A stretch of DNA of 64,000 nucleotides from Spirosoma profusum (lineage in GTDB: Bacteria; Bacteroidota; Bacteroidia; Cytophagales; Spirosomataceae), in assembly GCF_014699005.1 (NCBI RefSeq), contig NZ_JACWZY010000006.1, forward strand, positions 1 through 64,000. The letters are read 5' to 3'. A program made the translations under genes and the position numbers. The notes under the pieces are model-generated. The model saw only the letters and a program-made list of their open reading frames with translations. It searched no databases and was not told where the DNA came from. Below are positions 44,014-63,398 of this stretch, one piece after another. How positions within the stretch are numbered: the first letter of the stretch is position 1; each line of letters opens with the position of its first letter.

Positions 44014-44031
44014 GGTCATACGTTTATCCGA

Positions 44032-44094: not shown

Positions 44095-44721
44095 ATGATA
44101 CGTGTTTCCATTTTTGATGATAACAATTCTCTGCGCGAAACGCTGGGGCTAATTTTCGAAGCAACCGACGATCTGCTTACCGTCGGGAAGTATGCCGATG
44201 CCCTGCACGTAGTGGAATACGTCCGGCAGGACCAACCCGATGTGATTCTGATGGACATCGATATGCCTGGTCGGACAGGTATTGAAGCCGTCAAGCTCAT
44301 TCGCCAGCAGACGACTAAGCCTAAAATCCTGATGCTGACGGTTTTTGAGGATGTCGAACGCATTTTTGCGGCTATCTCGGCCGGAGCGGTGGGCTACCTG
44401 CTCAAAAAAACACCCGCCGACAAAATCATGGATGCTATCCGGGAAGTAAAATCGGGGGGAGCCGCCATGACGCCTTCCATCGCTCTGAAAGTGCTGGAAG
44501 CGTTTCATCAGCCCAAACCCAATGATTTTTTGCTGACCGACAAGGAAAAGGAAGTATTGCAGCGGCTGGTCGAGGGCGACAGTTACAAACTTATTGCGCA
44601 CCATTGCGGGATCAGCATGGGTACCGTGCGCACGCACATCGTAAATGTTTACGAAAAACTGCACGTCAACTCGAAGTCGGAAGCCGTAGCTAAAGCCCTG
44701 AAAACCGGGCTGTTCAAGTAA
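44095..44721 (+). CDS. NarL/FixJ-type response regulator
   Basis: The 208-residue regulator has a receiver domain (about 1-120) with acidic pocket Asp8 and Asp9, phosphorylation site Asp54 in LMDIDMPG and the conserved Thr/Lys pair in MLTVFED and LLKKTPADK. The LuxR-type HTH (about 142-205) has LTDKEKEVLQRLVEGDSYKLI and GTVRTHIVNVYEKLHV. It is the only response regulator next to three TPR histidine kinases and is probably their shared target. Its stop overlaps a possible start of the S41 protease gene (TAATG), so the two are likely one operon. Confidence 0.96.
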   Translation: MIRVSIFDDNNSLRETLGLIFEATDDLLTVGKYADALHVVEYVRQDQPDVILMDIDMPGRTGIEAVKLIRQQTTKPKILMLTVFEDVERIFAAISAGAVGYLLKKTPADKIMDAIREVKSGGAAMTPSIALKVLEAFHQPKPNDFLLTDKEKEVLQRLVEGDSYKLIAHHCGISMGTVRTHIVNVYEKLHVNSKSEAVAKALKTGLFK

Positions 44722-44753
44722 TGGATTTTACGTCCACACCGATAATACAGCAC

Positions 44754-46943: not shown

Positions 46944-47069
46944 GTACGTTTAAACTATAATTAACGCATGAAACAAGCTTACTACGTATAGTTAAAGGCT
47001 TGGAAATCGGTGCCAATTCTTGACGCTGATAATACAGACTACTCCATCAAGACCCAAAACTTCCGACTC

Positions 47070-48629
47070 ATGCAAAAAAAACTACTACATCTTCTGACAG
47101 TTGGACTGTTGGTCGTCCAGCCGTTGTTTGTCCGCGCTCAGATGGGATTTAACTCTCCGGTGGGTCTGACACCCAAACAGGACATCGAAATGTATAGCCG
47201 GAATAAGTTTCAGGTGCAGACAAACTACAGGCTTACCACCGATCCGGTTTCTGGTACGTACACGATGAATTGTACAATCCAGACAATTGAAACAACAACC
47301 GGCGTATTGCTTGATCCGGGCGGTGCCGGAAACTACCCGGCCAGTTTTACCTGTAGCACATCAATATACGATGATGCTAATGTGACGGCGGGTTACGAAC
47401 TGACCTTCGAGCTTCTGAACACTGAAGCCAATGGAGATTCGGTCATCATCGAAGATGCGTATGGCGGGCGGGCTGCCTACTCGGGTAATGTACACCCCAC
47501 TTCGGCGCTGTTAGTGCCCGGCTACGGGGTAACCGTTACGTTTAAATCCGACAATGATACGAACGTAGGGGCTGGATTTCGGCTGCGCTGGCGTCGTTTA
47601 TATCAGGTTGATCCGGGTAATTATGATCCACTTGGTTCCGGCTTAGTATATGATATTACCAAAGCATCTCTGGTCAGTGGTTTCCATGGCTTCTCTACAA
47701 TTCCTCAGGCTGGCTACGCAAGTTTTATAACTGGGTCTCAAAATAGTGCTAAGGGCGTAGGTGCCACAGCGTTAGGGCTTTTTCAGTTTGCCAGTGGCAA
47801 TTATTCATTTGCGGTAGGTTATAGCAATGTAGCGCTCTTGCAGGGTTCGATTGCTATGGGTGAGAATAATCGAGCCAGTGGATCTAATAGTGTAGCAATT
47901 GGTGAGAATAATATAGCTAGTGGTGGGGCTGCGGTAACCATAGGAGAGTCAAATACCGCCAGCAGCACGGGGGCTTTGGCGCTGGGTTATAAAAGTATTG
48001 CCAGTGGAGGCTTCTCCGTTGCTTTAGGAAATGCGGCTTCTACCAATGGTTTTACCGGTGCATTCGCAGTTGGGGATGCCAGTACTTCGACAAGAGTAAC
48101 CAGCACAACTGTCAATCAATACACATCTCGATTCGCCGGGGGCTATCGGCTGTTCACTAATTCAGCTACTACGGTTGGCGTGCAGTTGGCCGCGAATGGC
48201 AATGCCTGGTTGTCAATCTCCGACTCGACCAAAAAGGAACGCTTTCTGCCCATCGATCACGCTGATTTACTGACTAGTATCCGCACGCTACGTCTGGGCA
48301 CGTGGAACTACAAAGGCCAACGTAGCGAACGGCATTACGGCCCAATGGCGCAGGATTTCTTCGCCCGTTTCGGACGCGATGCGCTGGGTACTATCGGCTG
48401 TGATACGTTGCTCAACAGCCACGATTTTACGGCCGTTACGTTGAGTGGAGTTCAGGCGCTGGCTCTGGAAAATGAGCAATTGAAAGCCCAGATTCTCGAA
48501 TTAAAACAACAGGCCGAACGCGAACGAAAGCAGACCGCAACCCGACTGGAAGCTCTCGAACGGGCACTTCTGATTCGGCCTTCGCAACGCGTGACCCAGG
48601 ACAGTCGGCGTAAGAAAAACCGGTTGTAA
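47070..48629 (+). CDS. Surface protein with YadA-like head repeats and S74 chaperone domain
   Basis: The protein has 519 residues from the ATG at 47070, which starts the signal peptide (LLHLLTVGLLVVQPLFVRAQ); an upstream GTG at 47010 is rejected. The middle (about 225-345) has head repeats of the trimeric adhesin type (SIAMGENNRASGSNSVAIGE and similar). The C-terminal S74 intramolecular chaperone domain (about 395-480) starts at SISDSTKKERF, where the Ser and Lys of the self-cleavage dyad are expected, and continues with GTWNYKGQ and HYGPMAQDFF. It ends in a coiled coil. S74 domains trimerise beta-helical fibres and then cut themselves off. This suggests a trimeric stalked fibre on the cell surface. 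No phage genes are adjacent. Confidence 0.85.
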   Translation: MQKKLLHLLTVGLLVVQPLFVRAQMGFNSPVGLTPKQDIEMYSRNKFQVQTNYRLTTDPVSGTYTMNCTIQTIETTTGVLLDPGGAGNYPASFTCSTSIYDDANVTAGYELTFELLNTEANGDSVIIEDAYGGRAAYSGNVHPTSALLVPGYGVTVTFKSDNDTNVGAGFRLRWRRLYQVDPGNYDPLGSGLVYDITKASLVSGFHGFSTIPQAGYASFITGSQNSAKGVGATALGLFQFASGNYSFAVGYSNVALLQGSIAMGENNRASGSNSVAIGENNIASGGAAVTIGESNTASSTGALALGYKSIASGGFSVALGNAASTNGFTGAFAVGDASTSTRVTSTTVNQYTSRFAGGYRLFTNSATTVGVQLAANGNAWLSISDSTKKERFLPIDHADLLTSIRTLRLGTWNYKGQRSERHYGPMAQDFFARFGRDALGTIGCDTLLNSHDFTAVTLSGVQALALENEQLKAQILELKQQAERERKQTATRLEALERALLIRPSQRVTQDSRRKKNRL

Positions 48630-48772: not shown

Positions 48773-51442
48773 ATGAATCCACATTTTCGCCTTCTCTTTA
48801 GCGGACTGCTCACCTTTCTGGTTGGGTCAGTTGACGCGCAAACGCCCTGTTTCACCCCCCAAAGCCTGCCACCTACTTCACTGACTATTGCCGGTCTGCC
48901 CAGTAATGGTCCCGTTTATGTATCGACCGGCGATCTAAACGCCGATGGCAAGGCCGACCTTGTCGTTAGCAAAGGGAACCAGACCTTAGCCGTATTGCTG
49001 GGAAATGGGTCGGGTGGTTTTGCGGCTCCGACCAACGTGACTACCATCCACAATAGTCAGTTTACGGGTTTAGCTGACCTCAACGCCGACGGTCGACTCG
49101 ATATCGTCTCCATCGATTTCGGTACACATACGGCTAACGTATTACTGGGTAATGGCTCCGGCGGTTTCGGGGCTGCTACGTCAGTGACTCTGAATGGTTC
49201 TAGCACGTCGGCAGCACTGGGCGACGTAACGGGTGATGGTCGGGTAGATATCGTAACGGGCAATTCCGATGCGCAGGGCATCAGTGTTTCGTCGGGTAAT
49301 GGTTCGGGTGGATTCGGGGCGGCTGTTACAACAGCTTTCAACGTAACGAGCCCAATTATCGGGTTGGGCCGAATCGATAACAATACGTCACTCGACGTAG
49401 TGATTTCCAGTAGTAACAGTAACTACGTTCTGCGAGGGCTGAACAACGGGACCGGTACGTTTAACTTCACCAGTGGAGCGTACGCCGTAGGCGACGGCCC
49501 CTCCAATCCTGTTCTTGCTGATGTGAACGGCGACAACTTCAACGACCTGCTGACCGCCAATACAAACTCGGCGAACCTGACCGTGCGGCTCAACAACGGA
49601 TCGGGCGGTTTCGGCACTACAACGAATTATGACGTTAATAATAATCCGTACTTTCTGACGATGGCCGACATAAACGGCGATACATACCTCGACGCGGTGA
49701 TCGCCATGCGCGACGCTGGCAACGTAACGATCAAACTTGGCAATGGGGTGGGCGGTTTTGGCGAGTCGCAAATTTACGCTACCGAACAGGGTGGTTCGGC
49801 CCCGCCGATGGTAGTTGCGCCCGATCTGACAGGCGACAATCGACCCGATCTGGTTACGCCGAACGCTAATGGACTGGGGCTGGGTGTGTTACTGAACAAT
49901 GGATACGGAAGTTTCCTCGGCTACAACACCGTCAATTCAACTACCGCCATCGCCATCGGCGATCTGAACGGCGACCGACGGCCCGACATTGCCATAATTT
50001 CGTCATTCAACGTCCGCCTGCTGATGGCTAATGCAAATACTACCTACGCTCCGGCCATTGCGCTGGCGGTATCGGGCAGTCTGACCGACATCGGTATTAT
50101 GGATGTAAACGGAGATGGAAATAATGATTTATTGGTGACTAAAAGTAATGGCACCACGACAAACGGCGAATTACTGACCATGCTGGGAGCCGGAAATGGT
50201 ACGTTTGCCAATCCTACCAGCCTGGCCGTTGGTCGCGACCCAACAAAACTGTTCATTGCCGATGTAAACCGCGATACCCGGCTCGACGTAATGGTATTGA
50301 ACGCCAGCAACAACTCAACATCCGTATTCTTAAGATCGGGTTCGGGATTGGCATCGCCTACCACTGAGGCAAGCGGTAATGGCAACCTTGATTTATTGGC
50401 CGTCGATATCAATGGCAACGGGTCCGTTGATCTAATTACCCTGAATCAAGCGAATGGATCAATCTACGAGTTATATGGGAACGGCGATGGCACCTTTGGG
50501 GGAACAGTGACGCGCACTGTCGGGACGGCTCCCAACAAAATGGCGGCTGGGGATTTAAACAATGACGGACGGACCGATCTGATCGTAACGTTGCCCAACT
50601 CCGGTGAAATTTGTATTCTACAAAATACCGGCAACGTAGGAAACACACCAGCCGGGTCAGCTATCCTGATAGGTACAAATGTTGGCGTGGGTGGAACTCC
50701 GATGGGTGTGGAGTTGGCCGATTTGAACGGCGATGGTCGACTTGATATTGCTATAACGCAATTAGCGAACGATGCCGTAAAAATTCTGTACAACACAGGA
50801 GCCATGAGCTTTACAACTTCCACTACGTTGTCGACAGGAAAAGGCCCGTATATACTGAAAGTAAGACAACTGGCAGGTGACTCCCGCCCCGACCTGGTGG
50901 TCGGAAATACTGCCGACCGAACGCTATCCATCATCAATAACTGCACTACGTTCCCGTCGGTGAGCATCCTGCCATCGGCACCGCAGACTTATACGGCGGG
51001 ACAGCCTGTTTCCTTTACGGCGGTGGCCAGTTTGTTTGCGCCCACGAACTATAACTGGCAAAGTCGCCCTGACTGGCCGTATGGCTATGCAAGTAACAGT
51101 ACAGAGCCCATCAACGAAGAAATGGCACCTGGTGTGATGCAACCTACTACGTATACCATCACCGTTACGGCCAGCAACAGCCTGGTTTCAGCATCGGCTT
51201 CCAAGATTATTACCGTAGTTCCCGCTTTTCTTCAAACTGTGAAAAACGGTACGTGGACCGATCCAACAGTTTGGTCGGGCGGCTACGTGCCGCATGGGTA
51301 TGAGGTCGTACGTATTGGCCATGAGATAGATGTGCCCGTAAAGCCTGGTAATGGCCCCAACTATACGCTCAAAGTAATTTATACGGCGGGCGGCAAACTG
51401 CGGTTCATGAACGGGGCACGACTCTATTTCGGGCCAGATTGA
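48773..51442 (+). CDS. Secreted FG-GAP/VCBS beta-propeller protein
   Basis: The 889-residue protein has a signal peptide (FRLLFSGLLTFLVGSVDAQ) and about 14 FG-GAP-type repeats between residues 45 and 720. Each carries a calcium-loop motif of the form D-x-N-x-D-x-x-x-D (DLNADGKADLVV, DVNGDGNNDLLVT, DLNGDGRLDIAIT), often followed by GNGSGGFG. Two or more propellers are expected. A C-terminal Ig-like part (about 735-830) precedes a domain with NGTWTDPTVWSGGYVPHG, found in T9SS-exported proteins. No classical sorting domain is seen at the end. It probably binds ligands or matrix at the cell surface. REP copy 4 follows. Confidence 0.88.
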   Translation: MNPHFRLLFSGLLTFLVGSVDAQTPCFTPQSLPPTSLTIAGLPSNGPVYVSTGDLNADGKADLVVSKGNQTLAVLLGNGSGGFAAPTNVTTIHNSQFTGLADLNADGRLDIVSIDFGTHTANVLLGNGSGGFGAATSVTLNGSSTSAALGDVTGDGRVDIVTGNSDAQGISVSSGNGSGGFGAAVTTAFNVTSPIIGLGRIDNNTSLDVVISSSNSNYVLRGLNNGTGTFNFTSGAYAVGDGPSNPVLADVNGDNFNDLLTANTNSANLTVRLNNGSGGFGTTTNYDVNNNPYFLTMADINGDTYLDAVIAMRDAGNVTIKLGNGVGGFGESQIYATEQGGSAPPMVVAPDLTGDNRPDLVTPNANGLGLGVLLNNGYGSFLGYNTVNSTTAIAIGDLNGDRRPDIAIISSFNVRLLMANANTTYAPAIALAVSGSLTDIGIMDVNGDGNNDLLVTKSNGTTTNGELLTMLGAGNGTFANPTSLAVGRDPTKLFIADVNRDTRLDVMVLNASNNSTSVFLRSGSGLASPTTEASGNGNLDLLAVDINGNGSVDLITLNQANGSIYELYGNGDGTFGGTVTRTVGTAPNKMAAGDLNNDGRTDLIVTLPNSGEICILQNTGNVGNTPAGSAILIGTNVGVGGTPMGVELADLNGDGRLDIAITQLANDAVKILYNTGAMSFTTSTTLSTGKGPYILKVRQLAGDSRPDLVVGNTADRTLSIINNCTTFPSVSILPSAPQTYTAGQPVSFTAVASLFAPTNYNWQSRPDWPYGYASNSTEPINEEMAPGVMQPTTYTITVTASNSLVSASASKIITVVPAFLQTVKNGTWTDPTVWSGGYVPHGYEVVRIGHEIDVPVKPGNGPNYTLKVIYTAGGKLRFMNGARLYFGPD

Positions 51443-51458
51443 TTGTATTAGTGTAAGT

Positions 51459-51552
51459 GTTTTTGTCATGCTGAGGCACGAAGCATCTTAACGTATCCGA
51501 ACAAGCGAGCTAGGAAATCTCAAGATGCTTCCTTCGTCAGCATGACAAAAAC
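51459..51552. repeat. REP-like palindromic repeat, copy 4
   Basis: This 94-bp element has outer arms GTTTTTGTCATGCTGA and the matching TCAGCATGACAAAAAC, and inner arms AAGCATCTT/AAGATGCTT. It shares GCGAGCTAG in its middle with copy 2. It starts 16 bp after the FG-GAP stop codon. Confidence 0.9.
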
Positions 51553-51579
51553 AGCGCTAACGTAGCAGCGTTAACTAAC

Positions 51580-51633
51580 CAGACACCCGCAGATCAATAC
51601 GTACTTATACGCTATCTGGTCTGCGGGTGTCTG
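51580..51633. terminator. Strong hairpin, possible terminator
   Basis: CAGACACCCGCAGA (51580-51593) pairs perfectly with TCTGCGGGTGTCTG (51620-51633); three further pairs, one of them G-T, shorten the loop to 20 nt. The following bases are only mildly T-rich, so termination is plausible rather than certain. Confidence 0.5.
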
Positions 51634-51720
51634 TTGTTTAAGAGAAATCAAGTGATTGTTTGTCAGGTAGTTGAGGTGGGATTCTGCCGCTACGTAGTTT
51701 CCCCATCATACATTTATCCG

Positions 51721-51752
51721 ATTGATTGCCGCTAGAGGGCTAAGTAGTTTTG
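51721..51752 (+). promoter_or_regulatory. Promoter of the five-gene surface operon
   Basis: TAGTTTTG at 51745-51752 matches TAnnTTTG, and ATTG at 51721-51724 lies 20 bp upstream as a -33 element. The expected transcript start (near 51758) is about 29 nt before the start codon at 51787. Confidence 0.65.
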
Positions 51753-51782
51753 ACACAAGTTTTTAGCACTAAAAACCGTGTC
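51752..51782 (+). promoter_or_regulatory. Leader hairpin directly before the operon's first start codon
   Basis: GTTTTTAG (51759-51766) and CTAAAAAC (51769-51776) form a tight stem. GACAC/GTGTC can extend it across a small bulge if transcription starts early enough. It ends 4 nt before the ATG at 51787. Such a 5'-terminal stem can protect mRNA or limit translation; either is inference. Confidence 0.5.
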
Positions 51783-51786
51783 AGAA

Positions 51787-53481
51787 ATGCGCTCAACTTT
51801 ACTACTTCTCCTTTGCGGATTCTGGCTGAGCTCTCCCGCCTGGGCTCAGACGGAGGCTCCCTCTGGCAAATCGTCACCAGTGAAGCTGTCGGGTGGGCTG
51901 AATGCGTATGCAGGCTTTTATTCCGCCAGTGGTATTCAGGTTCGTAACCAGCCTTCGCCATTCGGTCTGAGTGGTTCGGTTACGGTATCGCTGCCCGGTG
52001 GCATCGCTATTCCATTCTCAGCAGTGCTGGGCAATCAGGGCAGTAGCTTCCGGCAACCTTTCAATCAGTTTGGTATATCGCCTACTTATAAATGGGCTAC
52101 GGTTCACGCCGGTTACCGCAACGTATCATTTTCTCCATTCACGCTGGCCGGGCATACGTTTCTGGGTGGTGGCGTCGAACTGAATCCGGGTAAACTGCGG
52201 CTGGGCGCGGTTTATGGTCGGTTCAATAAAGCCATTTCCACTAACATTGCCGAACCCGATATTATTCCGGCTTACCAACGTACCGGCTATGCTGTGAAAG
52301 TGGGTTACGGCAAACCCGGCAATTACGTAGACCTGATTATGCTACGTGCCAAAGACGATTCTGCATCCATCGCTTCCGTACCGCAATCGTCGACGCAAAC
52401 CGTATCGCCCGCCGAGAACCTAGTGGTTGGTCTTACCTCTCGTTTGCTGATTCTACAGCACATCACCGTCGAACTGGACGAAGCGGTGAGCGCCTACACC
52501 CGTGATGTTCGGGCCACGATGGTTTCAACCGAAGGTAGCAATCCCGTGACGCGCTTTTTTGGTCGGCTATTTACCCCGCGTTTGTCCACTCAGCTCACGC
52601 AGGCGACTCAGGCTGCCATTGGCTATAAGGGCAGGAATGCAGGTATCAAAGTACAGTACAAACGTATCGATCCCAATTTTCAGACGATGGGCGCGTATTA
52701 TTTCCAGAGCGACATCGAGAGTTATGCTATTGCTCCAAACGTTACGTTGCTCGAAGGAAAACTGCGGCTGTCGGGTAGTTACGGCGTTCAGTACGACAAT
52801 CTGGCGAATAACAAAAGCGCTCGCACCGGTCGGCAGATTGGTTCGCTGGTGGCGTCGTATAATCCCGAAACAAAGTTCGGAATCGACCTGCAACTGTCCA
52901 ATTACGGCATTAGCCAGCAGGCGGGACTTCGGCCGATTATCGATACGTTGCAACTGGCACAGAATAATCTCTCAGCTACCGTCAATACGCGCTACACGCT
53001 TCAGAAAGAGGACGTAATACAGGTATTCAATCTGACCACTACGTATCAGAAACTCAGCGACCTGAACGCCAATACGGCTAATCAGACCGAGAACAACAAC
53101 ATCAACCTGAATCTGGGCTATTTCTACCAGCAGACAACTACGGGCTGGGGCTTCAACGGGATGCTGTCGTACACCCAGACCCAGTTGCCAATTGTACTTG
53201 GTGACACCAACCGTACGGTACGTTTTTTCGGCCCTACACTCGGTGCAACTCAATCTTTTCTGGAAAAGAAACTAACCACCTCGGCCAACGCCAGCTACTT
53301 AATCAATCAGCAATTCGGTGTTACGGGTAACGTACTGACTGTGTCGGCAAATGCGGGTTATCAGGTGGCTAAACAGCAGACAATCAACGTATCGCTCAAT
53401 TACCTGAACTCAAATACAGGCATTCAGACAGAGAAATTCAACGAACTAAGAGGCAACCTCGGCTATGGCATCTCGTTCTAA
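51787..53481 (+). CDS. Putative outer-membrane beta-barrel protein, first gene of surface operon
   Basis: The protein has 564 residues from the ATG at 51787; a GTG three codons upstream is the other possibility. The signal peptide (TLLLLLCGFWLSSPAWAQ) is followed by alternating amphipathic strands throughout, such as YKWATVHAGYRNVSFSP and GAYYFQSDIESYAIAPNVTL. The protein ends in LRGNLGYGISF with the C-terminal aromatic typical of outer-membrane barrels. I cannot assign a named family. It overlaps the 1447-residue gene by 17 bp and heads a run of five co-directional genes (51787-63398). A role as membrane anchor or pore for the large proteins encoded downstream is inferred from this layout. 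Confidence 0.75.
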   Translation: MRSTLLLLLCGFWLSSPAWAQTEAPSGKSSPVKLSGGLNAYAGFYSASGIQVRNQPSPFGLSGSVTVSLPGGIAIPFSAVLGNQGSSFRQPFNQFGISPTYKWATVHAGYRNVSFSPFTLAGHTFLGGGVELNPGKLRLGAVYGRFNKAISTNIAEPDIIPAYQRTGYAVKVGYGKPGNYVDLIMLRAKDDSASIASVPQSSTQTVSPAENLVVGLTSRLLILQHITVELDEAVSAYTRDVRATMVSTEGSNPVTRFFGRLFTPRLSTQLTQATQAAIGYKGRNAGIKVQYKRIDPNFQTMGAYYFQSDIESYAIAPNVTLLEGKLRLSGSYGVQYDNLANNKSARTGRQIGSLVASYNPETKFGIDLQLSNYGISQQAGLRPIIDTLQLAQNNLSATVNTRYTLQKEDVIQVFNLTTTYQKLSDLNANTANQTENNNINLNLGYFYQQTTTGWGFNGMLSYTQTQLPIVLGDTNRTVRFFGPTLGATQSFLEKKLTTSANASYLINQQFGVTGNVLTVSANAGYQVAKQQTINVSLNYLNSNTGIQTEKFNELRGNLGYGISF

Positions 53482-56400
53482 CAAACTCGTTTTATTCACA
53501 CTATTCCTGATCCTGCTCAATCTGACAGGATGGGCACAGACGTTCCCGCTGCAGATTCAGGTGAACGTAATGCCGCCCTACAGCGCCTATTTGCAGGATT
53601 ATCCCGGCACAGGGCAGCAGGTGCGGGTGTTCATCATCAATACCAGCCGTACTACGTATCAGATTCGGCTGTCGGGCCAATTGACTGGCGATAACGGCAT
53701 CGAGATCAAAACCTCACCGAACTACCGGCCACCGCGCCCCGTAACGGTGCCCCCAGGCCAGACGCTATTGACCCGGAATGACCTCGAAGGCTTGTTCGAC
53801 CTGAACCAGATCGACGTAACGGGTATCGACAAAAACCTGCTGGCTCGCGGATTGCCCCTGCCTGATGGTACGTATCAGCTTTGTGTGCGGGCCTTCAACG
53901 AAACGGCCACCAACACGGCTACGGTCGCGTTCGGGCAGCCTTTATCGGCGGAGTTTCCAATTGGTTGCTCGGCACCCATCGTCGTCCGATCGGTTGAGCC
54001 GCCCATTCTGATTGCGCCCCTTTGCGATGCAGACGTAATGGCGACTACGCCACAATCGCTCGTTTTTACGTGGACTCCCCCGGCTGGTGTTTCTCCGGCA
54101 TCCGTTGAGTATACACTACGTGTAGTCGAGCTGCCGCAGGTTGATGTTGATCCGAATGTGTTTATCGATGCAGTCGCTCTGCCAAAATCTGGTGTGGAAG
54201 TGCGAAACCTACGTACCAGTACGTTGCTGTACGGCCCCACGCAGCCGCCGTTGCAGATGGGTAAACGTTATGCGTGGCGTGTGCAGGCTATTGATCGGTC
54301 GCGCAAGCTGGTTTTTCAGAATGACGGCAAAAGTCCGGTGTGTGCGTTTACGTATGGCATCGTTCCGAAAGAACAAATGAAACCGGGTGTCGAGTTGACG
54401 CAAACGCCCATCAAGATGGCGCCAATCGCCCTTGATTCAAGCATTACGTCGGCACCCGCTCAGAAAACGGCCATTGCGTCAGTCATCGAACCACCAAAGC
54501 AACTCAATGTCAATGTGCCACCGGCAGGGCTGGGACAATTGGTTTTTGCCGGGCAAACCATCATTGTCCAGAAAGTAACCAACCCCGATCAGGATCATTT
54601 TTCGGGCCGGGGAACGCTCACCATTACGTCACCAGTGAGCCTGAGCACTGACGTTGATTTTGCCAATCTGGTGATTCGGCCAACCAGTTCTGACCAGTCT
54701 GCTAAGAAAGGGAAAAATGGCTTTACCAGCTACGTTGTCGTAAAAGGCAAGCTTGAAACCAGTCTTAAAGGTGTAAAGCAGGGTAGAGGGGCGAAATTCA
54801 AAACCGACCGTCATACGGGCGGAACAGCGTCTGCTACGTATGAATCCATCCGGCTCATTGCCGATCACACTGCTACGTTAGACCAGACACTCAATACCTA
54901 TTCGCTCAACAAAGGCGGCAACGAAGAAGCGTCGATCAAGACTGGTTTTGTCTGGAACAGCCCCATTACTTTGACAACGATAGGCGCCGTCAATTCGGGG
55001 TCGGGTAATAAACTTTCCGTCGGTTCGGTCAAGACGTATGATGGGAATATGACTGTTGAAGTACCGGGCGAGTGGCATCCGCTGGCATCGGCTGGTCAGG
55101 CCGCATCATCGGAAACGCTGAAAATTCCGTTTGGACAGTCCTACAGTGGCCAGATGACCGACCTGAAAGGTTTCCGATTGGAAGTTAAAGAAGATTCGTA
55201 TTTCGAGATTCAGAACAACGTATTAAAGGCCCACCTGAATGGCTCGTTGCTGGTGAACGGTGGTAAAAAAGGCGTTCCTGACCTGACTATCCCTTTCCAG
55301 AACAGCGACGGCATTACGTTCACGCAACAGATTGACGATCCGCAAATCGTACTGGGAACTGTTGATGATCAGGCGCGGTTGTTCCTGAGCTTTCAGGCCG
55401 TGAACGTACAGCTCGGCGACTTATTTGAGGCCGACGACCTGCCGTATCCGCAGTGGGTCAAAGGGATTTCATGCCCTACTGTGGATTTGTGGGCCGGTAA
55501 GATGGTCTACATGCAGGATCAGGACCACCCCACTTCGCAGGATCACCTGGATTGGATGACCATTCCGCTCAATCCGATTGTGAATCGTGGTAAAGGCTAC
55601 GAATCAAGCTATGGTGGGCGCGACGATCTGAATATTCAATCGCCGTATCTGGGCTATAAAGGGAAAATCACCCATGCGGTCGCCTTCATCAAAAACACCG
55701 AACTCACGATGGGCTTTGTTGCGGGCGAGGTATACATCCCGTTCGTGGGCGCTGTCGGCGATTTGCAGATCAGCATCGAGAAATACGGTTTGGGCGATGC
55801 GGATGTATTTTTCACTAAACCCTCAGAACGGACCTTATTACAAACACCAGAAGGTGATCAGGTAACGCTGAAAGTAACGGGTGGCCATTTCGAAGACAGC
55901 TATTTCCACCCCGATATGTGGATTTCGGCCTACAATCCGACGAACTCCACGCGCGGCATCGATGCCCGTAACATTCACATGGATGGCGTCGATATAGCCA
56001 TTACACCCAAAGGTGAATTGGTCAGTAATTACGTGGGCAAGGACGCTGAAGCCTACTTCGGCGGCAGCAATCAGAAAACCGCTTACCTCAACGGCATTGA
56101 TTATCAGCTGGCGCGGGTAGTACTGGCCGACGAACCGGGGGGCAAAAACTCGCGGCTTTCGTTTGTCGGTAAGCTGGTGCTGGGTGATAAAATCGTGACC
56201 AAGCCGCAGGATGAGTACGACATTGTGTTTGCCAAACCCGACAAAGATGCCTTTGAGTTCGATGGTACCATTAAGTATCAACCCATTAACAACGGACCGA
56301 AGCTACCGGCAGGGTCGGGTTTTGGTGGTGGCAAAAAAGGCAGCGGACCCTACAACGACCCCAACGACGAACGCTACGCAGCCGAATTTGCGCCGGCCAG

Positions 56401-57808
56401 TCTCGGCTACTTCCTCGAACGCTCAGCGCCGGCTTCGGCTATAGTGCCCACGGCTACCAAAACGTATGGCGGTAGCTACTCGACCAGTACTGGGGCATTC
56501 AGCGCGCAGTTCACGATTTTCAACGACGACGCTACGTATGGCAACGGCTTTATGGCCACCCATAGCATGCTGCTCTACAACCCGTCGTACATGAAAGTGG
56601 AAGCCGCCATCCGGGCCGGTAAGATGCAGGGTGTGAAATACTGGTTTGCCGGGTTCAAGTACGAAAATCCCAGCTCACCCGGTATCCCGCTGTTCCTGAA
56701 TCTTGAGGGCTACGGCTTTGAAGGACGGCTCTACAGCCACATGAAGCACGTGGGCGCTGCCAGTGCCATCTTCGACGATAACTACGTTCCCGATGCCAAC
56801 ACCAGCTTCGGCCTGTACGCAGCGATGCCAATTCAATCGACCGTTGATAAGGGACGGTTCCTGTGGGGGAAAACCGGCATGGAAATGGCGTTTCAGGGCT
56901 TTGTTCCCAGCACCATCACGATCCGGGGCGACGTGAACATGGAACAGATAGGCGGTACGGGCGATGCCACTACGTCGCGTATTCAGGGGAATGCGGTGCT
57001 TACGATGACTCCCAAAGAAAAAACGCTCATGGGGGTTGTCAACATGACCAAAGGCGATTTTGGGGTAGCCTGCATGACCGGAAGCGCCTATCTGTACGTT
57101 GGTCCGAGTGGATTTGCGGCCTCAGTCGGCTCGCCCGCCGGGCCTGTCGAAGTGAAAGCCATGTGCGGCCTGATGGGTGATTTTACGCCCTCTGCAAACG
57201 GGTATCTGTCGATCTACGCCACCAACGGCAGTATCGGTGGAATGGATTGGGTACCCAGCAGCGGCATTGGCGTATTTGCGCATCTCGGCGTTACGTTGCT
57301 CAATATCAACACAAAAGATCATTTCGATACCAATCCCTGGGCCAGTGTATACGCGGGCGCCAATGCCGACCTGGGCGTTACCATTCGTCCTTCGCTGGAC
57401 CTGAAAGCCCGTGTTGGCACCCAGATTTCGTTGAACGTGGGCTACAGCAATTATTCATTTAATCTGGCCAACGTAACCGAAACCGTCCAACTCACCCTGC
57501 CTAATTTCTGCCTTGCCTACAACAAACGTATTTGCTTCCCGGTGCTGGGTGGCTGCAACCTGATTGTAGGATTGTCTCCTGGCCCATACATACGAACCAA
57601 CGGCGAAGTATCGGATATGTGCTACGACGATGGCTCGGTGCAAGGGCCTTGCGAGGGTTTGTTAGGTTGGCTCATGGATGGGGTTCAGGTGATAATTAAC
57701 GTAGCGGGCGAAGTGCTTGATGCGGCTGGTAATCTGATTCGCGATGCTGCCGGAGCCGTTGTCGATTTGGCTGAAGATACCTGGGAGGCATTAACTGGTT
57801 GGTGGTGA
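53465..57808 (+). CDS. Giant TANFOR-like surface protein (1447 residues)
   Basis: A signal peptide (LVLFTLFLILLNLTGWAQ) is followed by FPLQIQVNVMPPYSAYLQDY and an Ig-like N-terminal region (about 20-150). This start resembles the TANFOR domain proteins of Bacteroidota, as far as I can recall the family. A second Ig-like domain (about 170-290) has FTWTPPAGVSPASVEYTLRV. The long remainder (330-1350) is beta-rich with repeated Gly-Asp segments and no recognised domain. A cysteine cluster lies at about 1355-1395. The C-terminal 45 residues form an amphipathic helix (INVAGEVLDAAGNLIRDAAG) ending in Trp-Trp. There is no T9SS sorting domain. It overlaps the barrel gene and precedes the FN3 gene by 23 bp. 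Function is unknown; a large extracellular structural or adhesion component is likely. Confidence 0.8.
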   Translation: MASRSNKLVLFTLFLILLNLTGWAQTFPLQIQVNVMPPYSAYLQDYPGTGQQVRVFIINTSRTTYQIRLSGQLTGDNGIEIKTSPNYRPPRPVTVPPGQTLLTRNDLEGLFDLNQIDVTGIDKNLLARGLPLPDGTYQLCVRAFNETATNTATVAFGQPLSAEFPIGCSAPIVVRSVEPPILIAPLCDADVMATTPQSLVFTWTPPAGVSPASVEYTLRVVELPQVDVDPNVFIDAVALPKSGVEVRNLRTSTLLYGPTQPPLQMGKRYAWRVQAIDRSRKLVFQNDGKSPVCAFTYGIVPKEQMKPGVELTQTPIKMAPIALDSSITSAPAQKTAIASVIEPPKQLNVNVPPAGLGQLVFAGQTIIVQKVTNPDQDHFSGRGTLTITSPVSLSTDVDFANLVIRPTSSDQSAKKGKNGFTSYVVVKGKLETSLKGVKQGRGAKFKTDRHTGGTASATYESIRLIADHTATLDQTLNTYSLNKGGNEEASIKTGFVWNSPITLTTIGAVNSGSGNKLSVGSVKTYDGNMTVEVPGEWHPLASAGQAASSETLKIPFGQSYSGQMTDLKGFRLEVKEDSYFEIQNNVLKAHLNGSLLVNGGKKGVPDLTIPFQNSDGITFTQQIDDPQIVLGTVDDQARLFLSFQAVNVQLGDLFEADDLPYPQWVKGISCPTVDLWAGKMVYMQDQDHPTSQDHLDWMTIPLNPIVNRGKGYESSYGGRDDLNIQSPYLGYKGKITHAVAFIKNTELTMGFVAGEVYIPFVGAVGDLQISIEKYGLGDADVFFTKPSERTLLQTPEGDQVTLKVTGGHFEDSYFHPDMWISAYNPTNSTRGIDARNIHMDGVDIAITPKGELVSNYVGKDAEAYFGGSNQKTAYLNGIDYQLARVVLADEPGGKNSRLSFVGKLVLGDKIVTKPQDEYDIVFAKPDKDAFEFDGTIKYQPINNGPKLPAGSGFGGGKKGSGPYNDPNDERYAAEFAPASLGYFLERSAPASAIVPTATKTYGGSYSTSTGAFSAQFTIFNDDATYGNGFMATHSMLLYNPSYMKVEAAIRAGKMQGVKYWFAGFKYENPSSPGIPLFLNLEGYGFEGRLYSHMKHVGAASAIFDDNYVPDANTSFGLYAAMPIQSTVDKGRFLWGKTGMEMAFQGFVPSTITIRGDVNMEQIGGTGDATTSRIQGNAVLTMTPKEKTLMGVVNMTKGDFGVACMTGSAYLYVGPSGFAASVGSPAGPVEVKAMCGLMGDFTPSANGYLSIYATNGSIGGMDWVPSSGIGVFAHLGVTLLNINTKDHFDTNPWASVYAGANADLGVTIRPSLDLKARVGTQISLNVGYSNYSFNLANVTETVQLTLPNFCLAYNKRICFPVLGGCNLIVGLSPGPYIRTNGEVSDMCYDDGSVQGPCEGLLGWLMDGVQVIINVAGEVLDAAGNLIRDAAGAVVDLAEDTWEALTGWW

Positions 57809-57831
57809 GAATAGTATAGCTAGAAAACACG

Positions 57832-59826
57832 ATGAAAACTACATCAATTGTCCTGCTCTGTATGGCTATATGCTACACACCGCTGGCCGTCGCTCAAAAT
57901 TCCAAACTCCTGCGGGCCTATGCTCAACCGGTCAGGAATGAAAATGCCATTCAGGTTAAGTGGATTATTGGGGTGCCAACGCCTACCGTCCAATACCACG
58001 TATTACGTCGGTTAGTAGGTGAAAAGGTATTTAAACGACTGACCGTAAAACCGTTGCAGGGTATTGTGGCTCCTGAGCCTGGCGCGTCGGGTGCCATTGC
58101 CGACGCTCAGAAAAACTACCTGGCTTATATACAGGCGCGTCCGAAAGCCAAAGCTGATGCCCGCCTGTATCTGCAACTGTTCAGCATGAATGCTACCATC
58201 AGCAACGAGTTTGCCCAGGCCGCGGGCGTGTACTATACCGATAAAACCGTGACGGCAGGCCAGACTTACGAATACGCCATCAGTGCCATACTGAAGGGTA
58301 AAGAATATAGCTGGGCCGTCAGCGCACCCGTACGCGCTGGCAACTACCAGCCGTTGGCGGCCTCTACTGGCCTTAAACTAAAGCAGGAAGGCACCCGACG
58401 CGTGGCCGTAAACTGGACCATCCGGCCCGATGTGCTGGCTTACAACGTATATCGTCGGCGTGGAACGGGTGGCATGGATGAGAAAATCAATAAGCAGCCT
58501 GTAATCGTCATCGACGCGCAGGGCGGTAAGCAGCCTTCTACCCAGTTTACCGATACTGACAGCACGCTGCGTGTCGGCGAAACGTATTATTACCGCATTG
58601 CCGCGCTCGATCCGTTCGTAAATCCCGGCGAACTGAGTCAGCCCGTCTGGCTCACGATCAAAGACATGGACCCACCTGCCGGACCAACGAACCTGAGCGG
58701 CCGCATCGATAACCGAAAGGTGAGGCTTGGCTGGACCCCTTCGCCTGCTCGTGACTGCATTGGCTATCGGCTGTTCCGCAGTACGTCGATGGAGAAACCG
58801 TTTCAGCCCGTACTACCCCGCCTGCTGGCTACAACCGATACAACGTTCACTGACGAAACGGCTCTGGAAGGAAGCACATATTATTACTACCTCCGGGCCG
58901 AAGATCAGGCTGGTAACGGCGCGAATACGTTGCCCATTCAGGTCAGTCATCCCGACCTGACTCCACCTGCATCGCCCACCGGTCTGGTAGCGCAAACCGA
59001 TACGACAGGCCACGTTCGGCTAAGTTGGAAGGGTAATACGGAATCGGACCTCGCCGGGTATTTCGTCTATCGTGGCCTGACTCAAAGCGATGACAATTAT
59101 GCTCAGTTGCAACTGGCTCCGCACAAGCTGGCTACGTACCGCGATACGTTGCTACGTAACAACCGCAACGCGTTCTACTACCGTGTAACGGCGGTCGATA
59201 AAATGGGTAACGAAAGTAAGCCCGCCCTGCTGACGGTACGTCTGCCCGACCGTCGCCCACCGATTACACCCCATCTGCAAACCCTCACGGCCACGGGTGA
59301 TTCGGTGCAGGTGATCTGGCAGGCATCGTCGTCGGAGGATGTGCGCGTCTACCACGTATTACGCCAGAATGAGAACGACGCCAAACCAACGTATCAGATC
59401 GTGGGTCGCACTTCCGCCAACCGGTTTTCGGATCGGAACGTAGCGAGTGGTACGTATCGCTACGCTATACAGGCCGTCGACAGCACCGGTAATACGTCGC
59501 AACCGTCGATTCCGCGTTTGGTACAGCTTATTGGTAAATATAGCCTTACGACACCTGCCAATGTAAATGTGCAGTTGGATGAGCGGGGCAAGCGCCTAAC
59601 CGTAAGCTGGAATCGTACCCAGCAGCCGACTGATTTTGCGGGATACCGCGTACTGGCCCGCGACGCTGGCGAAACGTTTCGGGCCGTAACTCCTCTGCTG
59701 GCCGAATCACAGGCCGTACTCACCGATTGGGAAAACGGCTCCGACTACGAAATCGCAGTGGTGGCCGTGAGCCAGACGGGACGGCAGCTACGTAGCGAAA
59801 TTGTCAAGGCGAAAGCCAGTAACTAA
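57832..59826 (+). CDS. Secreted fibronectin type III protein (664 residues)
   Basis: A signal peptide (SIVLLCMAICYTPLAVAQ) leads into a unique N-terminal region (about 25-180) that contains a short FN3-like part. At least five FN3-type domains follow (about 180-660), recognisable by repeats of the form VAVNWTIRPDVLAYNVYRR, VRLGWTPSPARDCIGYRLFR, VRLSWKGNTESDLAGYFVYR and VQVIWQASSSEDVRVYHVLR. There is no sorting domain at the C-terminus (IVKAKASN), so it may stay periplasmic or be held by partners. It lies 23 bp after the giant gene and 18 bp before the ten-FN3 gene. FN3 arrays act as rods or binding modules; the ligand is unknown. Confidence 0.88.
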   Translation: MKTTSIVLLCMAICYTPLAVAQNSKLLRAYAQPVRNENAIQVKWIIGVPTPTVQYHVLRRLVGEKVFKRLTVKPLQGIVAPEPGASGAIADAQKNYLAYIQARPKAKADARLYLQLFSMNATISNEFAQAAGVYYTDKTVTAGQTYEYAISAILKGKEYSWAVSAPVRAGNYQPLAASTGLKLKQEGTRRVAVNWTIRPDVLAYNVYRRRGTGGMDEKINKQPVIVIDAQGGKQPSTQFTDTDSTLRVGETYYYRIAALDPFVNPGELSQPVWLTIKDMDPPAGPTNLSGRIDNRKVRLGWTPSPARDCIGYRLFRSTSMEKPFQPVLPRLLATTDTTFTDETALEGSTYYYYLRAEDQAGNGANTLPIQVSHPDLTPPASPTGLVAQTDTTGHVRLSWKGNTESDLAGYFVYRGLTQSDDNYAQLQLAPHKLATYRDTLLRNNRNAFYYRVTAVDKMGNESKPALLTVRLPDRRPPITPHLQTLTATGDSVQVIWQASSSEDVRVYHVLRQNENDAKPTYQIVGRTSANRFSDRNVASGTYRYAIQAVDSTGNTSQPSIPRLVQLIGKYSLTTPANVNVQLDERGKRLTVSWNRTQQPTDFAGYRVLARDAGETFRAVTPLLAESQAVLTDWENGSDYEIAVVAVSQTGRQLRSEIVKAKASN

Positions 59827-59844
59827 GTCACACCTTCATCGACT

Positions 59845-62800
59845 ATGAAAAAGTACTTTTTTCTGCTCCTGTTCCCAATTTTACTGCATTTGTCAGTACT
59901 GGGTCAGTCTAACGCGCCTACCAATCTGGCAGCTTCAGCCCAGAACAGCACGTCGATCCGGCTCACCTGGACCGACAACATTTCCAACGAAACCGGTTTT
60001 GACATTGAACGCAGTACCGATAATCGGACCTTTACCAAAATTGCCGATGGCAACGCGAATACACCTTCATTTACGGTTACGGGATTATCGCCCGCTACGC
60101 TCTATTACTTTCGGGTACGGGCTAAATTCGCTACCGGCACATCGAACTACTCGAATGTAGCTTTTGTCACTACGTATCCTGTACCTCCCGTTGTCAATAC
60201 GCTGACTGCTACGTCGAAAGGCACTACCTCGATTCAGCTCGCCTGGACTGATGTCGTTAAGGAAGGTACTTATTTCGTCGAACGCCGGACAGGACAGTCG
60301 GGCAACTTCACCCGCATCGCTACGTCTGGGCCAGGGTATACCGATAACAGCGTATCGCCGGGTACGGAATACTGCTACCGCGTACAGTATGATGCCAGTT
60401 ATGAAACCGCCGGTTACTCCAACATAGCCTGCGCCACCACCCAGCAAGCTCCGCCAGCAGCCCCTGCTAGACTTGCGGCACAGGCTGTATCCAGCAGTCA
60501 AATCAATCTGCAATGGGCCGATGTAAGCAATAACGAAACAGGTTTCCAGATTGAGCGGGCCAGCAGTGCTACGGCACCGTTTACGAAAATTGCGGATGTA
60601 GGTGCGAATGCTACGTCTTACGAGGATAAAAACCTGTCGGCCAGCACGCAATACTGCTATCGGGTTCGGGCTGTCAATGGCGCGGGCAACAGCGGCTATA
60701 CAGATATTCAGTGTGCGACTACGCAGGCGCCACCCCTCGGCGCGCCCCAGAATCTGGTTGCTGCGGCCGCTTCAACTACGCAGATTAACTTGTCGTGGAC
60801 AGGTGTAGCCAACATCACCGGCTATCAACTCGAACGTAGCACCGATGGAAATAACTGGGCTAAAATTGCTGACCCAGCTAACAACGCCACCAGCTACGAA
60901 GACAAAAACCTAGCACCAAATTCGCGCTATTACTATCGACTACGTGCCGTCAACGGCGGTGGTCCCGGTCCTTATTCAAACGTAGCAGATGCCACTACGC
61001 CTGATACGCCACCCGCAGCCCCCGCTCGCCTGACTGCCACCGCCGTTACGTTCAGCCAGATTAACCTGCAATGGGCCGATTTGAGTAATAATGAAAGCCG
61101 CTTTGAAATCGAACGTAGCACCGACGGGACGAGCTTCACTAAAATCGCCGATGTTGGGGCGAATGCAACGAGCTACGAAGACAAAAATTTGCAACCGCAG
61201 ACGCGCTACTACTATCGTATTCGGGCCGTTAATGCGGCCGGTTCGTCGGGGTACTCCAACGTAGCAGATGCCACTACGCCCGTTGGTCCGCCCGCAGCGC
61301 CACAAAATTTAGTGGCTACGGCGGTCTCAATTACGCAGATCAATCTGACGTGGACGGCGGTGCCTAATGCCACGAACATTCTTATAGAACGGAGTCCAAA
61401 TGGCAACGATGGCTGGACGCAGATTGCCAGTGTAGCTGGTAACGTCACTACGTATGAGGACAAAAACCTGAGCCAGAACACACGTTATTTTTACCGAATA
61501 CGGGCTACCAACACCAGCGGAAACGGGCCATATAGCAACGTAGCAAATGCGATCACACCCGATGCGCCACCAGCAGCACCCGCTCGTCTGACGGCAGCAG
61601 CGGCTTTGGCCACGCAGATTAATCTGGTCTGGGCCGACTTATCAAATAACGAATCGGGTTTCGAAATCGAACGTAGCGCCGATGGAAATACGGGCTGGAC
61701 GAAAATTGGGGATGCAGCCGCAAACGCTACGTCGTTTCAGAATATCGGCCTGACACCGAATACGCGCTATTTTTATCGCATTCGGGCAATCAACGCGGCT
61801 GGGCAGTCGGCGTATTCGAACGTAGCGGATGCGACCACTCCCGATGTGCCACCAGCAGCTCCCGCGAATCTGACCGCTACACCCGGCTCGGCTACACAAA
61901 TCAACCTGACCTGGGCCGACCAATCGGCCAATGAAACCGGTTTTGAGGTTGAACGGGCAAGCAGTGCTACGGCACCATTTACGAAAATTGCCGATTTGCC
62001 GGCCAATACAACCACGTATCAGGATCAGGGATTAACGCCTGCGGCAACGTATTGCTACCGGGTTCGGGCTAAAAATACCATTGGCGCATCGGCGTATTCC
62101 AACGTAGCGTGCTCGGCTACGCCTGACGTACCGCCCGCGGCCCCGGCCCGCCTGACGGCTACTCCAGCATCGCCCACGCAAATTAATCTGGCCTGGGCAG
62201 ATTTGTCGGCGAATGAGAGTGGTTTTGAGGTCGAACAAAGTACTAGCGCTACCGGTACGTTCACGAAAATCGCAACCCTGCCCGCGAATGCGACGACCTA
62301 CGAAGTCAAAAACCTGACGGATGCCACGCAGTACTGCTTCCGGGTTCGAGCCGTGAATGCGGCCGGACCATCAGCCTATACAGAACCTGCCTGCGCCACT
62401 ACGCCTTTAGCTCCGCCAGTCACGCCAACGGGTCTAACTGCCAAGGTGTCGGATTATGACCAGATTCAACTGAACTGGGCTGCCGTTTCGCCGAAAGCTG
62501 TAACGGTTAGTATTGAGCGGTCTACAAATCCGAATGGCCCATTTGTGGAAATCAAACAGGTGCCAGCCGCACAGACCAATTATGTTGATCCGGGTTTGCA
62601 GGAGTTCACTACGTATTACTTCCGCATTCGGGCAACCAATGCTGCCGGAAACTCGAACTACTCGAACGTAGCATCGGCGCGGATTGAAGAGGTTGTCATT
62701 GGCGTGGAAGACGAATGGATTACGCAGACGCAGGTTTTTGTCGAGAATCGTACCCTACAGATACGTACTGAGTGGTATCGGTCGGTTCCGGCGCAGGTTC

Positions 62801-62961
62801 AATTACACAGCCTGGATGGCCGGGTTCAACTCGCTGATAATCGACGGGTTGGTACAACCGATGCCTGGTCTTACTCGCTAACACAGCCGCCATCGGGCCT
62901 GTACGTACTCGCTATTGTGGCCGATGGACGGCTATTCACCAAACGTATCATACTACCATGA
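59845..62961 (+). CDS. T9SS cargo protein with ten FN3 domains
   Basis: The 1038-residue protein has a signal peptide (FFLLLFPILLHLSVLGQ) and ten FN3 domains of about 92 residues (24-955). Each starts with a form of PPAAPARLTATAVTFSQINL and contains ETGFEIERS-type and YYYRIRAVNAAG-type strands. A short linker (VIGVEDEWITQTQ) precedes the C-terminal sorting domain (about 970-1038). That domain has PAQVQLHSLDGRVQLADNRR, PSGLYVLAIVADG and the end FTKRIILP, the standard type A T9SS signal. It should be exported and attached to the surface. The FN3 units are also highly similar at DNA level, so length variation by recombination is expected. It overlaps the lipoprotein gene by 4 bp. Confidence 0.93.
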   Translation: MKKYFFLLLFPILLHLSVLGQSNAPTNLAASAQNSTSIRLTWTDNISNETGFDIERSTDNRTFTKIADGNANTPSFTVTGLSPATLYYFRVRAKFATGTSNYSNVAFVTTYPVPPVVNTLTATSKGTTSIQLAWTDVVKEGTYFVERRTGQSGNFTRIATSGPGYTDNSVSPGTEYCYRVQYDASYETAGYSNIACATTQQAPPAAPARLAAQAVSSSQINLQWADVSNNETGFQIERASSATAPFTKIADVGANATSYEDKNLSASTQYCYRVRAVNGAGNSGYTDIQCATTQAPPLGAPQNLVAAAASTTQINLSWTGVANITGYQLERSTDGNNWAKIADPANNATSYEDKNLAPNSRYYYRLRAVNGGGPGPYSNVADATTPDTPPAAPARLTATAVTFSQINLQWADLSNNESRFEIERSTDGTSFTKIADVGANATSYEDKNLQPQTRYYYRIRAVNAAGSSGYSNVADATTPVGPPAAPQNLVATAVSITQINLTWTAVPNATNILIERSPNGNDGWTQIASVAGNVTTYEDKNLSQNTRYFYRIRATNTSGNGPYSNVANAITPDAPPAAPARLTAAAALATQINLVWADLSNNESGFEIERSADGNTGWTKIGDAAANATSFQNIGLTPNTRYFYRIRAINAAGQSAYSNVADATTPDVPPAAPANLTATPGSATQINLTWADQSANETGFEVERASSATAPFTKIADLPANTTTYQDQGLTPAATYCYRVRAKNTIGASAYSNVACSATPDVPPAAPARLTATPASPTQINLAWADLSANESGFEVEQSTSATGTFTKIATLPANATTYEVKNLTDATQYCFRVRAVNAAGPSAYTEPACATTPLAPPVTPTGLTAKVSDYDQIQLNWAAVSPKAVTVSIERSTNPNGPFVEIKQVPAAQTNYVDPGLQEFTTYYFRIRATNAAGNSNYSNVASARIEEVVIGVEDEWITQTQVFVENRTLQIRTEWYRSVPAQVQLHSLDGRVQLADNRRVGTTDAWSYSLTQPPSGLYVLAIVADGRLFTKRIILP

Positions 62962-63398
62962 AAAATCTACGCCTTCTCTTTTTTCTGCTCATCGGTCTGA
63001 GTAGTTGTCAGCCCAAAACCGTTACGCCCATTACAGATCTTGTCAGTAAAATATGGAAAGCCAATACCGTGAAAGAAGCGGACGTACTGGTTTTTACGCT
63101 CGGTGCTACGTCGAACATCAAACCGGGTTATACGAATTTCCGGCTCGATCTGAGCCAGCCGGGTAAGGTCATTCTGAAAGATGTGGATGGCCGTACCATC
63201 ACCGGCACCTGGACCGTGTCAACTGACAACAAACGCCTGATTTTGTCGGACTTAACGCCGAAGCCAACTAATACGGGCGGTATGATCGAATATTTCATTT
63301 TGTCAGACGCCGACGGTTCGTCGCTAAATCTGGAACGTACTGCCGAAAGCCGTAAAACGGGAAATACAGTCAATCAATACGGGTTGATACCAGAGTAA
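62958..63398 (+). CDS. Small lipoprotein, last gene of the surface operon
   Basis: The 146-residue protein has a lipoprotein signal (LRLLFFLLIGLSSC, lipobox Cys at 17 or 18). A beta-rich lipocalin-like domain follows, with SKIWKANTVKEADVLVF, LDLSQPGKVILKDVDGRT, GTWTVSTDNKRLILSDL and YFILSDADGSSLNLER. The order of segments resembles the lipocalin-like/DUF5004-type lipoproteins common in Bacteroidota, but I am not certain of the family. Its ATG overlaps the stop of the T9SS cargo gene (ATGA), so it is co-translated with it. It may serve as a membrane-bound partner of the surface proteins. Confidence 0.82.
   Translation: MKNLRLLFFLLIGLSSCQPKTVTPITDLVSKIWKANTVKEADVLVFTLGATSNIKPGYTNFRLDLSQPGKVILKDVDGRTITGTWTVSTDNKRLILSDLTPKPTNTGGMIEYFILSDADGSSLNLERTAESRKTGNTVNQYGLIPE

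Follow-up and report, generated by a model that had tools for sequence, protein, structure and literature searches.

A TANFOR-barrel cassette locus in Spirosoma profusum in which a constant outer-membrane module may present an exchangeable giant protein

How might a giant exported protein without a recognised sorting signal of the type IX secretion system (T9SS) reach the cell surface, and what does the outer-membrane barrel encoded next to it contribute? This question is raised by five genes in a 64,000-nt stretch of DNA from Spirosoma profusum (the window; positions 1 to 64,000 of contig NZ_JACWZY010000006.1). They encode, in order, a beta-barrel protein, a giant protein with a TANFOR-type N-terminus, two FN3 proteins (FN3a and FN3b) and a lipoprotein. 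The five open reading frames (ORFs) at 51787-63398 are all intact, without internal stops, measure 564, 1447, 664, 1038 and 146 aa, and are spaced by -17, +23, +18 and -4 bp. We show that the locus is a cassette system: the giant body and FN3a are swapped together, as a single block, and the TANFOR-immunoglobulin-like (TANFOR-Ig) module of the giant largely stays with the barrel. With moderate confidence we read it as a TANFOR-barrel cassette locus, in which a constant outer-membrane module presents an exchangeable giant cargo; the export route and the activity of the cargo we infer.

An earlier sequence-only reading had taken the five tightly packed genes for one dedicated envelope apparatus, and had named beforehand, as a possible refutation, homologues that do not occur together. 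In 34 of 37 family loci, window included, the homologues lie in the order barrel, giant, (extra ORF), FN3a, FN3b, lipoprotein, so the set travels together and one apparatus is supported. The three exceptions are L042, where FN3b has moved upstream; L135, which is in pieces; and L010, which is cut by the fetched end. L044, with FN3b split over two ORFs, was counted as in order; L135, with its broken ORFs, was scored as a miss here and left out of the barrel-band comparison and the barrel tree described below.

The giants of 36 loci fall into three body types (I, II and III in 5, 14 and 17 loci), and we compared pairs of loci binned by barrel identity. Where barrels were 84-100% identical, pairs with the same body and pairs with different bodies (40 and 23 pairs) were alike in the TANFOR module (88 vs 87%) and in the lipoprotein (75 vs 80%), whereas FN3a stood at 60 vs 21%; the C-terminus of FN3b stood at 63 vs 46%. 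The other four barrel bands gave 39-55 vs 19-20% for FN3a and 55-71 vs 56-76% for the lipoprotein, with the TANFOR module level in two of them (60/60 and 63/62, same/different body; the remaining two are weighed below). Thus, body and FN3a change together between flanks that vary far less.

The ends of the block can be placed directly on the DNA. Compared with six type II or III loci, similarity to the window stops at 54357, 54357, 54359, 54359, 54372 and 54410, immediately after the TANFOR-Ig module, and comes back inside FN3b at 60280-60640. On a barrel tree of 36 rows (9 of 33 branches open, and a long-branch warning for L042), body type changes 9 times, against a minimum of 2 and 15.3 for shuffled labels, of which 0 of 200 sets were as low. 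Some very close barrels carry different bodies, as in L043 (I) and L139 (II), or L044 (III) and L137 (II). Judged from these alignments, the barrel, TANFOR module, FN3b and lipoprotein look like the more constant parts, and the giant body and FN3a like the exchangeable ones. Of the earlier description with anchor, scaffold and rod, the single apparatus is supported, with one correction here: the giant looks like an exchangeable cargo, and FN3a like the partner of that cargo.

Body types I (the window's), II and III give giants of about 1400-1540, 1950-2290 and 2420-2800 aa. Bodies of type I and type II are distantly homologous (hhalign Prob 98.8, E 8e-17, 598 columns), and homology of type III to type I (Prob 2) or type II (Prob 0.5) was undetectable with hhalign. 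The type I body ends in a Cys-containing beta region followed by a long C-terminal helix; the body model has a predicted local distance difference test score (pLDDT) of 70.9 and a predicted template modelling score (pTM) of 0.41.

A second, smaller exchange is seen within type I. Spirosoma flavus is the nearest named relative for giant, barrel and FN3a, and its giant is 97% identical to that of the window in the TANFOR module and 79-92% identical across residues 299-1120, falling to 39-67% over residues 1121-1447. Over these last residues the window giant instead shares 60-85% identity with five other giants (from S. panaciterrae, two Larkinella species and two more), which reach just 44-67% over residues 299-1060; within type I, residues 1181-1447 have been exchanged. 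FN3a mirrors this, with 40-50% identity to S. flavus in its first 166 residues and 71-89% after. Over 21 pairs from seven type I loci, which are not independent of each other, the correlation of identities is 0.94 for giant C-terminus with FN3a N-terminus and 0.95 for giant middle with FN3a C-terminus; the cross-correlations are 0.59 (giant C-terminus/FN3a C-terminus) and 0.79 (giant middle/FN3a N-terminus). Giants and FN3a proteins were paired by gene tags or contig, or, in two metagenome cases, just by contigs of equal length, and the co-variation is tempered by the FN3a N-terminus being the most variable part of FN3a towards most relatives in any case. The simplest reading of these identities is that a tract across the giant/FN3a junction was exchanged as a matched pair. 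Such matching across a gene junction suggests that giant C-terminus and FN3a N-terminus probably touch each other. The pair resembles toxin/immunity pairs, though Pfam and NCBIfam recognise no toxin or immunity family in giant or FN3a, and the co-varying N-terminal piece belongs to an FN3 protein with a signal-like start.

Among 200 family genomes, the giant was matched in 66 and the barrel in 72; after merging of pieces, this gave 96 TANFOR-type genes and 123 barrels. With a pairing window of -200 to +3000 bp between match ends, and secondary match pieces of already listed genes excluded, 86 of the 96 TANFOR-type genes are preceded by a barrel on the same strand, at a median distance of 53 bp (78 within 150 bp, one at 1890 bp). 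When 37 unpaired barrels were searched by profile, 25 proved to be followed by a TANFOR gene missed earlier, and five have one further down the locus (L065, L066, L067, L081 and L096). In a phylum sample of 345 genomes, the TANFOR profile matches 101 and the barrel profile 147. Counting every listed row (93 of the 101 TANFOR-matching genomes, 145 TANFOR ORFs), the barrel lies immediately upstream for 68 ORFs, in the same ORF for 8 and on the same strand within 20 kb for 38. The wide barrel gene and the TANFOR-type gene are thus associated in many Bacteroidota genomes. The eight fusions (L100-L107; 863-1016 aa) have TANFOR at the N-terminus and the barrel behind, and in L063 and L072 a TANFOR module stands alone beside a barrel; the module therefore occurs joined to a body, alone beside a barrel, or joined to a barrel. 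Four loci (L065, L066, L067 and L096) encode in succession a barrel, a giant in which TANFOR is not matched, FN3a and a stand-alone TANFOR protein (about 1100 aa), an arrangement in which the module may act in trans.

The barrel had been put forward from sequence as an outer-membrane barrel candidate, and its model indeed folds as a beta-barrel (mean pLDDT 86.4), in which we counted 24 strands of at least 8 residues. Pfam gives it no match at E<=0.1, and Pfam and NCBIfam together nothing meaningful. PorV and PorP-like barrels have 14 strands (PMC9143113), and an assignment to PorV or PorP/SprF was rejected on strand number and on the absence of a Pfam family. Its best structural match is MtrB in the MtrAB complex (6r2q); a role as an MtrB-type electron conduit was rejected as well, CxxCH being found in 0 of the 5 window proteins and the likeness being confined to the barrel fold. 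Remote relatives of the barrel, 797-917 aa long, occur once or twice in many phylum-sample genomes (L108-L111). L110 combines a CHASE2-cyclase, a 917-aa barrel relative, FecR and a 397-aa protein that matches TANFOR weakly (18 bits), and in L108 a CHASE2-cyclase adjoins a 797-aa barrel relative; these relatives may represent an envelope signalling system assembled from the same components.

Residues 32-159 of the giant match TIGR02542 (model 7-141 of 145) at 32.5 bits and E 6.9e-08, a genuine but weak match, below the curated cut-off of 67. A sub-threshold fn3 match also appears in Pfam/NCBIfam. At E<=0.1 NCBIfam lists TIGR02542 only and finds neither a type A nor a type B T9SS C-terminal domain (CTD), and the giant was thus rejected as a member of the T9SS cargo families. 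Proteins of the TANFOR class have been described as Bacteroidetes polymorphic toxins, with a tested DNase toxin among class members (Jana, Salomon and Bosis 2020, PMC7073777). That account publishes a link of TANFOR neighbourhoods with the T9SS, offers T9SS export as a hypothesis only and leaves outer-membrane crossing open; its main text contains the words 'barrel' and 'porin' 0 times. In a second paper TANFOR appears a single time, listed among trafficking domains (PMC11796102). Among open-licence papers, with most subscription journals outside this scope, the phrase 'TANFOR domain' was found only in PMC7073777, and no further account of related systems was found. The earlier impression of a set with no characterised counterpart and a giant of mostly unknown fold therefore needs amending at the giant N-terminus, which lies near a published toxin class.

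The likeness to published TANFOR toxins lies in an N-terminal TANFOR-type module on a large exported protein, an exchangeable C-terminal part, and neighbours with Fn3 and T9SS sorting domains, here FN3b (PMC7073777). The differences are that the window giant has no recognised toxin domain, that this locus type swaps a whole body (about 1100-2500 residues) plus FN3a, and that it has a dedicated barrel, which goes unmentioned in the main text of that paper. The TANFOR class is thus already known; what is new is the constant barrel partner and the architecture of exchange.

We propose the following working of the locus. All five proteins would be exported by Sec, as judged by eye from signal peptides and lipobox: four N-termini carry Sec-like signal peptides, that of the giant being a hydrophobic stretch ending in WAQ, and the fifth a lipoprotein-like signal. 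The TANFOR-Ig module would then dock to its own 24-strand barrel, either from the periplasm or within the lumen, a placement suggested because the fusions carry TANFOR N-terminal to the barrel; in known barrels the N-terminal side is periplasmic. The barrel would export or hold the giant, with the amphipathic beta body exposed, and FN3a would cap the C-terminal domain of the giant or assemble with it. FN3b would be secreted by the type IX system to form a rod on the surface, and the set may be anchored with the help of the lipoprotein. Exchange of cargo between conserved flanks suggests diversifying selection, as in contact-dependent antagonism or cell recognition.

Several observations weigh against this cassette reading. 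In two barrel bands (72-78 and 78-84% identity) the TANFOR module is lower across body types (73/64 and 79/71, same/different body), so it is not perfectly constant and not wholly independent of the body. Ten of the 96 family TANFOR genes lack an upstream barrel; for four of these (G016 C18 and C24, G084 C25 and C112) the contig begins right at the gene. Seven barrels have no TANFOR gene (L060, L062, L071, L073, L077, L090 and L095); one of them, L060, is a second barrel in the genome that holds the window and lies close to the end of its contig. In the phylum sample, 31 of the 145 listed TANFOR ORFs have no listed barrel, 12 of these being at least 900 aa long. Neither partner, then, strictly needs the other. 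The barrel can also be a mere anchor, the window giant shows no toxin domain in Pfam or NCBIfam, and its body model is middling by pTM. Separately, L113 (G212:C7), G330:C91 and G233:C39 have very long TANFOR-type open frames (about 6400 residues), with no barrel listed nearby.

Going further, we tentatively propose that barrel and TANFOR-Ig module could be two halves of an undescribed Bacteroidota outer-membrane delivery system. The module would serve as a universal address by docking into its cognate 24-strand barrel, and any body spliced behind it, with its cognate FN3a, would be exported or displayed without a T9SS signal; TANFOR toxins could leave the cell by this route. We hold this at somewhat less than an even chance.

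The main rival, which we regard as doubtful but far from negligible, has the giant leave by the type IX system, with the barrel, like PorV or SprF, only collecting it at the cell surface or anchoring it there. SprA is encoded in the host genome (8.73 Mb, 81 contigs; 2268 bits). FN3b, whose FN3 domains, like those of FN3a, are recognised by Pfam/NCBIfam, carries the type A signal TIGR04183 at 27.9 bits, above the NCBIfam cut-off of 23 (in Pfam it scores 14.4, below the cut-off of 27), and the signal is found at E<=0.01 in 33 of 33 scanned FN3b C-termini, window included (33 of 35 proteins, L010 and L044 left out). The sequence-only reading had called FN3b a ten-FN3 T9SS cargo; the cargo part is borne out by NCBIfam, and for the count Pfam fn3 gives nine stretches that pass alone. 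The rival further draws on the published T9SS link of TANFOR neighbourhoods (PMC7073777) and on SprF-like barrels encoded beside type B cargo, which they anchor (PMC12618676, PMC9143113). What counts against it is that NCBIfam matches neither a type A nor a type B CTD in the giant itself, and that the barrel has no Pfam match and 24 long predicted strands instead of 14 (PMC9143113).

We consider it unlikely that the locus is an ordinary adhesin or surface-layer cluster whose allelic variation reflects phage or predator pressure and not toxin delivery. FN3 rods, a giant without a recognised toxin domain in Pfam and NCBIfam (toxins of other kinds remaining possible), one related giant (L064) whose C-terminus has lectin repeats, and a toxin-like family in just one of ten scanned giant C-termini would all fit such a cluster. 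That one C-terminus, however, belongs to a 2276-aa giant beside a barrel (L084, 9239-16069) and ends in a DUF3289/YPO3983-like domain, of a family we take to be toxin-like, followed by a 180-aa ORF, together a candidate toxin and immunity pair by their sequence; the matched giant C-terminus/FN3a N-terminus pairs fit cargo plus partner; and a DNase toxin has been tested in the TANFOR class (PMC7073777). For adhesion, gliding or a sheath, the roles floated earlier, we found specific support here for none. A system in which barrel and TANFOR-like protein sense the outside and pass a signal on is very improbable, since despite the CHASE2-cyclases beside the barrel relatives of L110 and L108, and the FecR protein of L110, those relatives are remote and FecR, cyclase or sensor families occur in 0 of the 5 proteins in Pfam and NCBIfam.

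Contact-dependent inhibition and two-partner secretion pair a constant secretion partner and N-terminus with an exchangeable C-terminus that has a cognate partner, much as this locus does, but the Pfam scan of the five proteins shows neither a family of their transporters nor haemagglutinin repeats. Chaperone-usher cargo is Ig-like, and ushers such as FimD and PapC offer a barrel of like size; no usher or pilus chaperone family occurs in the five proteins (Pfam, NCBIfam), and this candidate was rejected as a match of barrel size only (FimD has 24 strands; PMC7198977). The MtrAB porin sheath also has a barrel of similar size, with 26 strands in MtrB, built to hold a protein (6r2q; PMC7198977); the window set differs in having no CxxCH haem motif and a barrel that Pfam does not match. 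Type B T9SS cargo with a PorP/SprF shuttle likewise places a giant surface protein beside its own outer-membrane barrel (PMC9143113, PMC12618676). In the window, by contrast, the barrel is upstream and not downstream, has 24 long strands and not 14, and the giant lacks a type B CTD.

The locus suggests a route outward for little-understood giant bacterial proteins, some of them toxins. A wide barrel, often with TANFOR, sometimes fused to it, and unmoved during cargo exchange is a concrete and testable answer on outer-membrane crossing, and barrel plus TANFOR module make a simple signature by which new giant effectors or surface proteins can be sought. The sharply bounded natural exchanges also reveal the modular build of such giants. 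The features of the locus are collected in Table 1.

Table 1. Features of the cassette locus in the window
Feature	Position	Strand	Basis
Conserved promoter/operator	51706..51752	+	TCATACATTTATCCGATTG, 20 nt, TAGTTTTG; kept in 19/19 aligned upstream regions
Barrel, predicted wide outer-membrane beta-barrel; constant part	51787..53481	+	
Putative TANFOR-Ig docking module of giant (~residues 26-298); constant part	53465..54358	+	TIGR02542 match; DNA-similarity end point
Exchangeable all-beta body of giant, type I	54359..57808	+	Homologous to type II body; structure model
Last ~270 residues of giant, second exchangeable unit	from about 57005	+	C-terminal exchange
FN3a, FN3 protein with signal-like start; exchanged together with body	57832..59826	+	First ~166 residues co-vary with giant C-terminus
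FN3b, constant part; FN3 rod carrying a T9SS type A sorting domain	59845..62961	+	TIGR04183
Lipoprotein, lipobox LSSC by eye; constant part	62958..63398	+	Invariant Cys17

The lipoprotein is present in 36 of 37 loci, the exception being the truncated L010; its Cys17 is invariant in all 15 sequences aligned (of 30 at hand), and it has no match in Pfam or NCBIfam. For the three proteins given to PHROGs, FN3-like matches to phage structural proteins arose for FN3a only. An anti-phage system was rejected, PADLOC returning 0 families for the four proteins given (FN3b not among them).

The single promoter claimed from sequence is supported by conservation in relatives. TCATA[CT]ATTTATCCGATTG at 51706-51724 and, behind it, TAG-TTTG (TAGTTTTG) at 51745-51752 are kept in all 19 aligned upstream regions, namely the window and the 18 closer loci of 36, the other 17 lying outside the alignment. 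The two-part pattern occurs a single time in the 8.7-Mb genome. A generic sigma-70 scan of the region stayed at chance level; the site fits the Bacteroidota TTG / TAnnTTTG promoter type. A copy of the first motif with two mismatches, of which about 0.22 are expected per genome and 0.0016 per window, lies at 44016-44034, before a LuxR-type response regulator gene (44095-44721) that is followed by an S41 peptidase gene (44721-46943). In its exact form the two-part pattern does not occur at that site, and common regulation of these genes and the operon is a possible lead only.

Upstream of the operon lie genes for a YadA-head protein with an S74 chaperone domain (47010-48629) and an 889-aa FG-GAP/PKD protein (48773-51442). 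DNA similarity is absent from 50001-51692 in the eight loci compared, so at least the end of the FG-GAP/PKD gene is outside the conserved block. Between this gene and the operon, two inverted repeats were noted by eye at 51459-51636, one with ends GTTTTTGTCATGCTGA.../...TCAGCATGACAAAAAC and the other with a CAGACACCCGCAGA stem; they look like a repeat element and a terminator. An imperfect inverted repeat, TGACACAAGTTTTTAG / CTAAAAACCGTGTCA, also noted by eye, lies at 51751-51783, right before the barrel start codon, and is kept in part among relatives.

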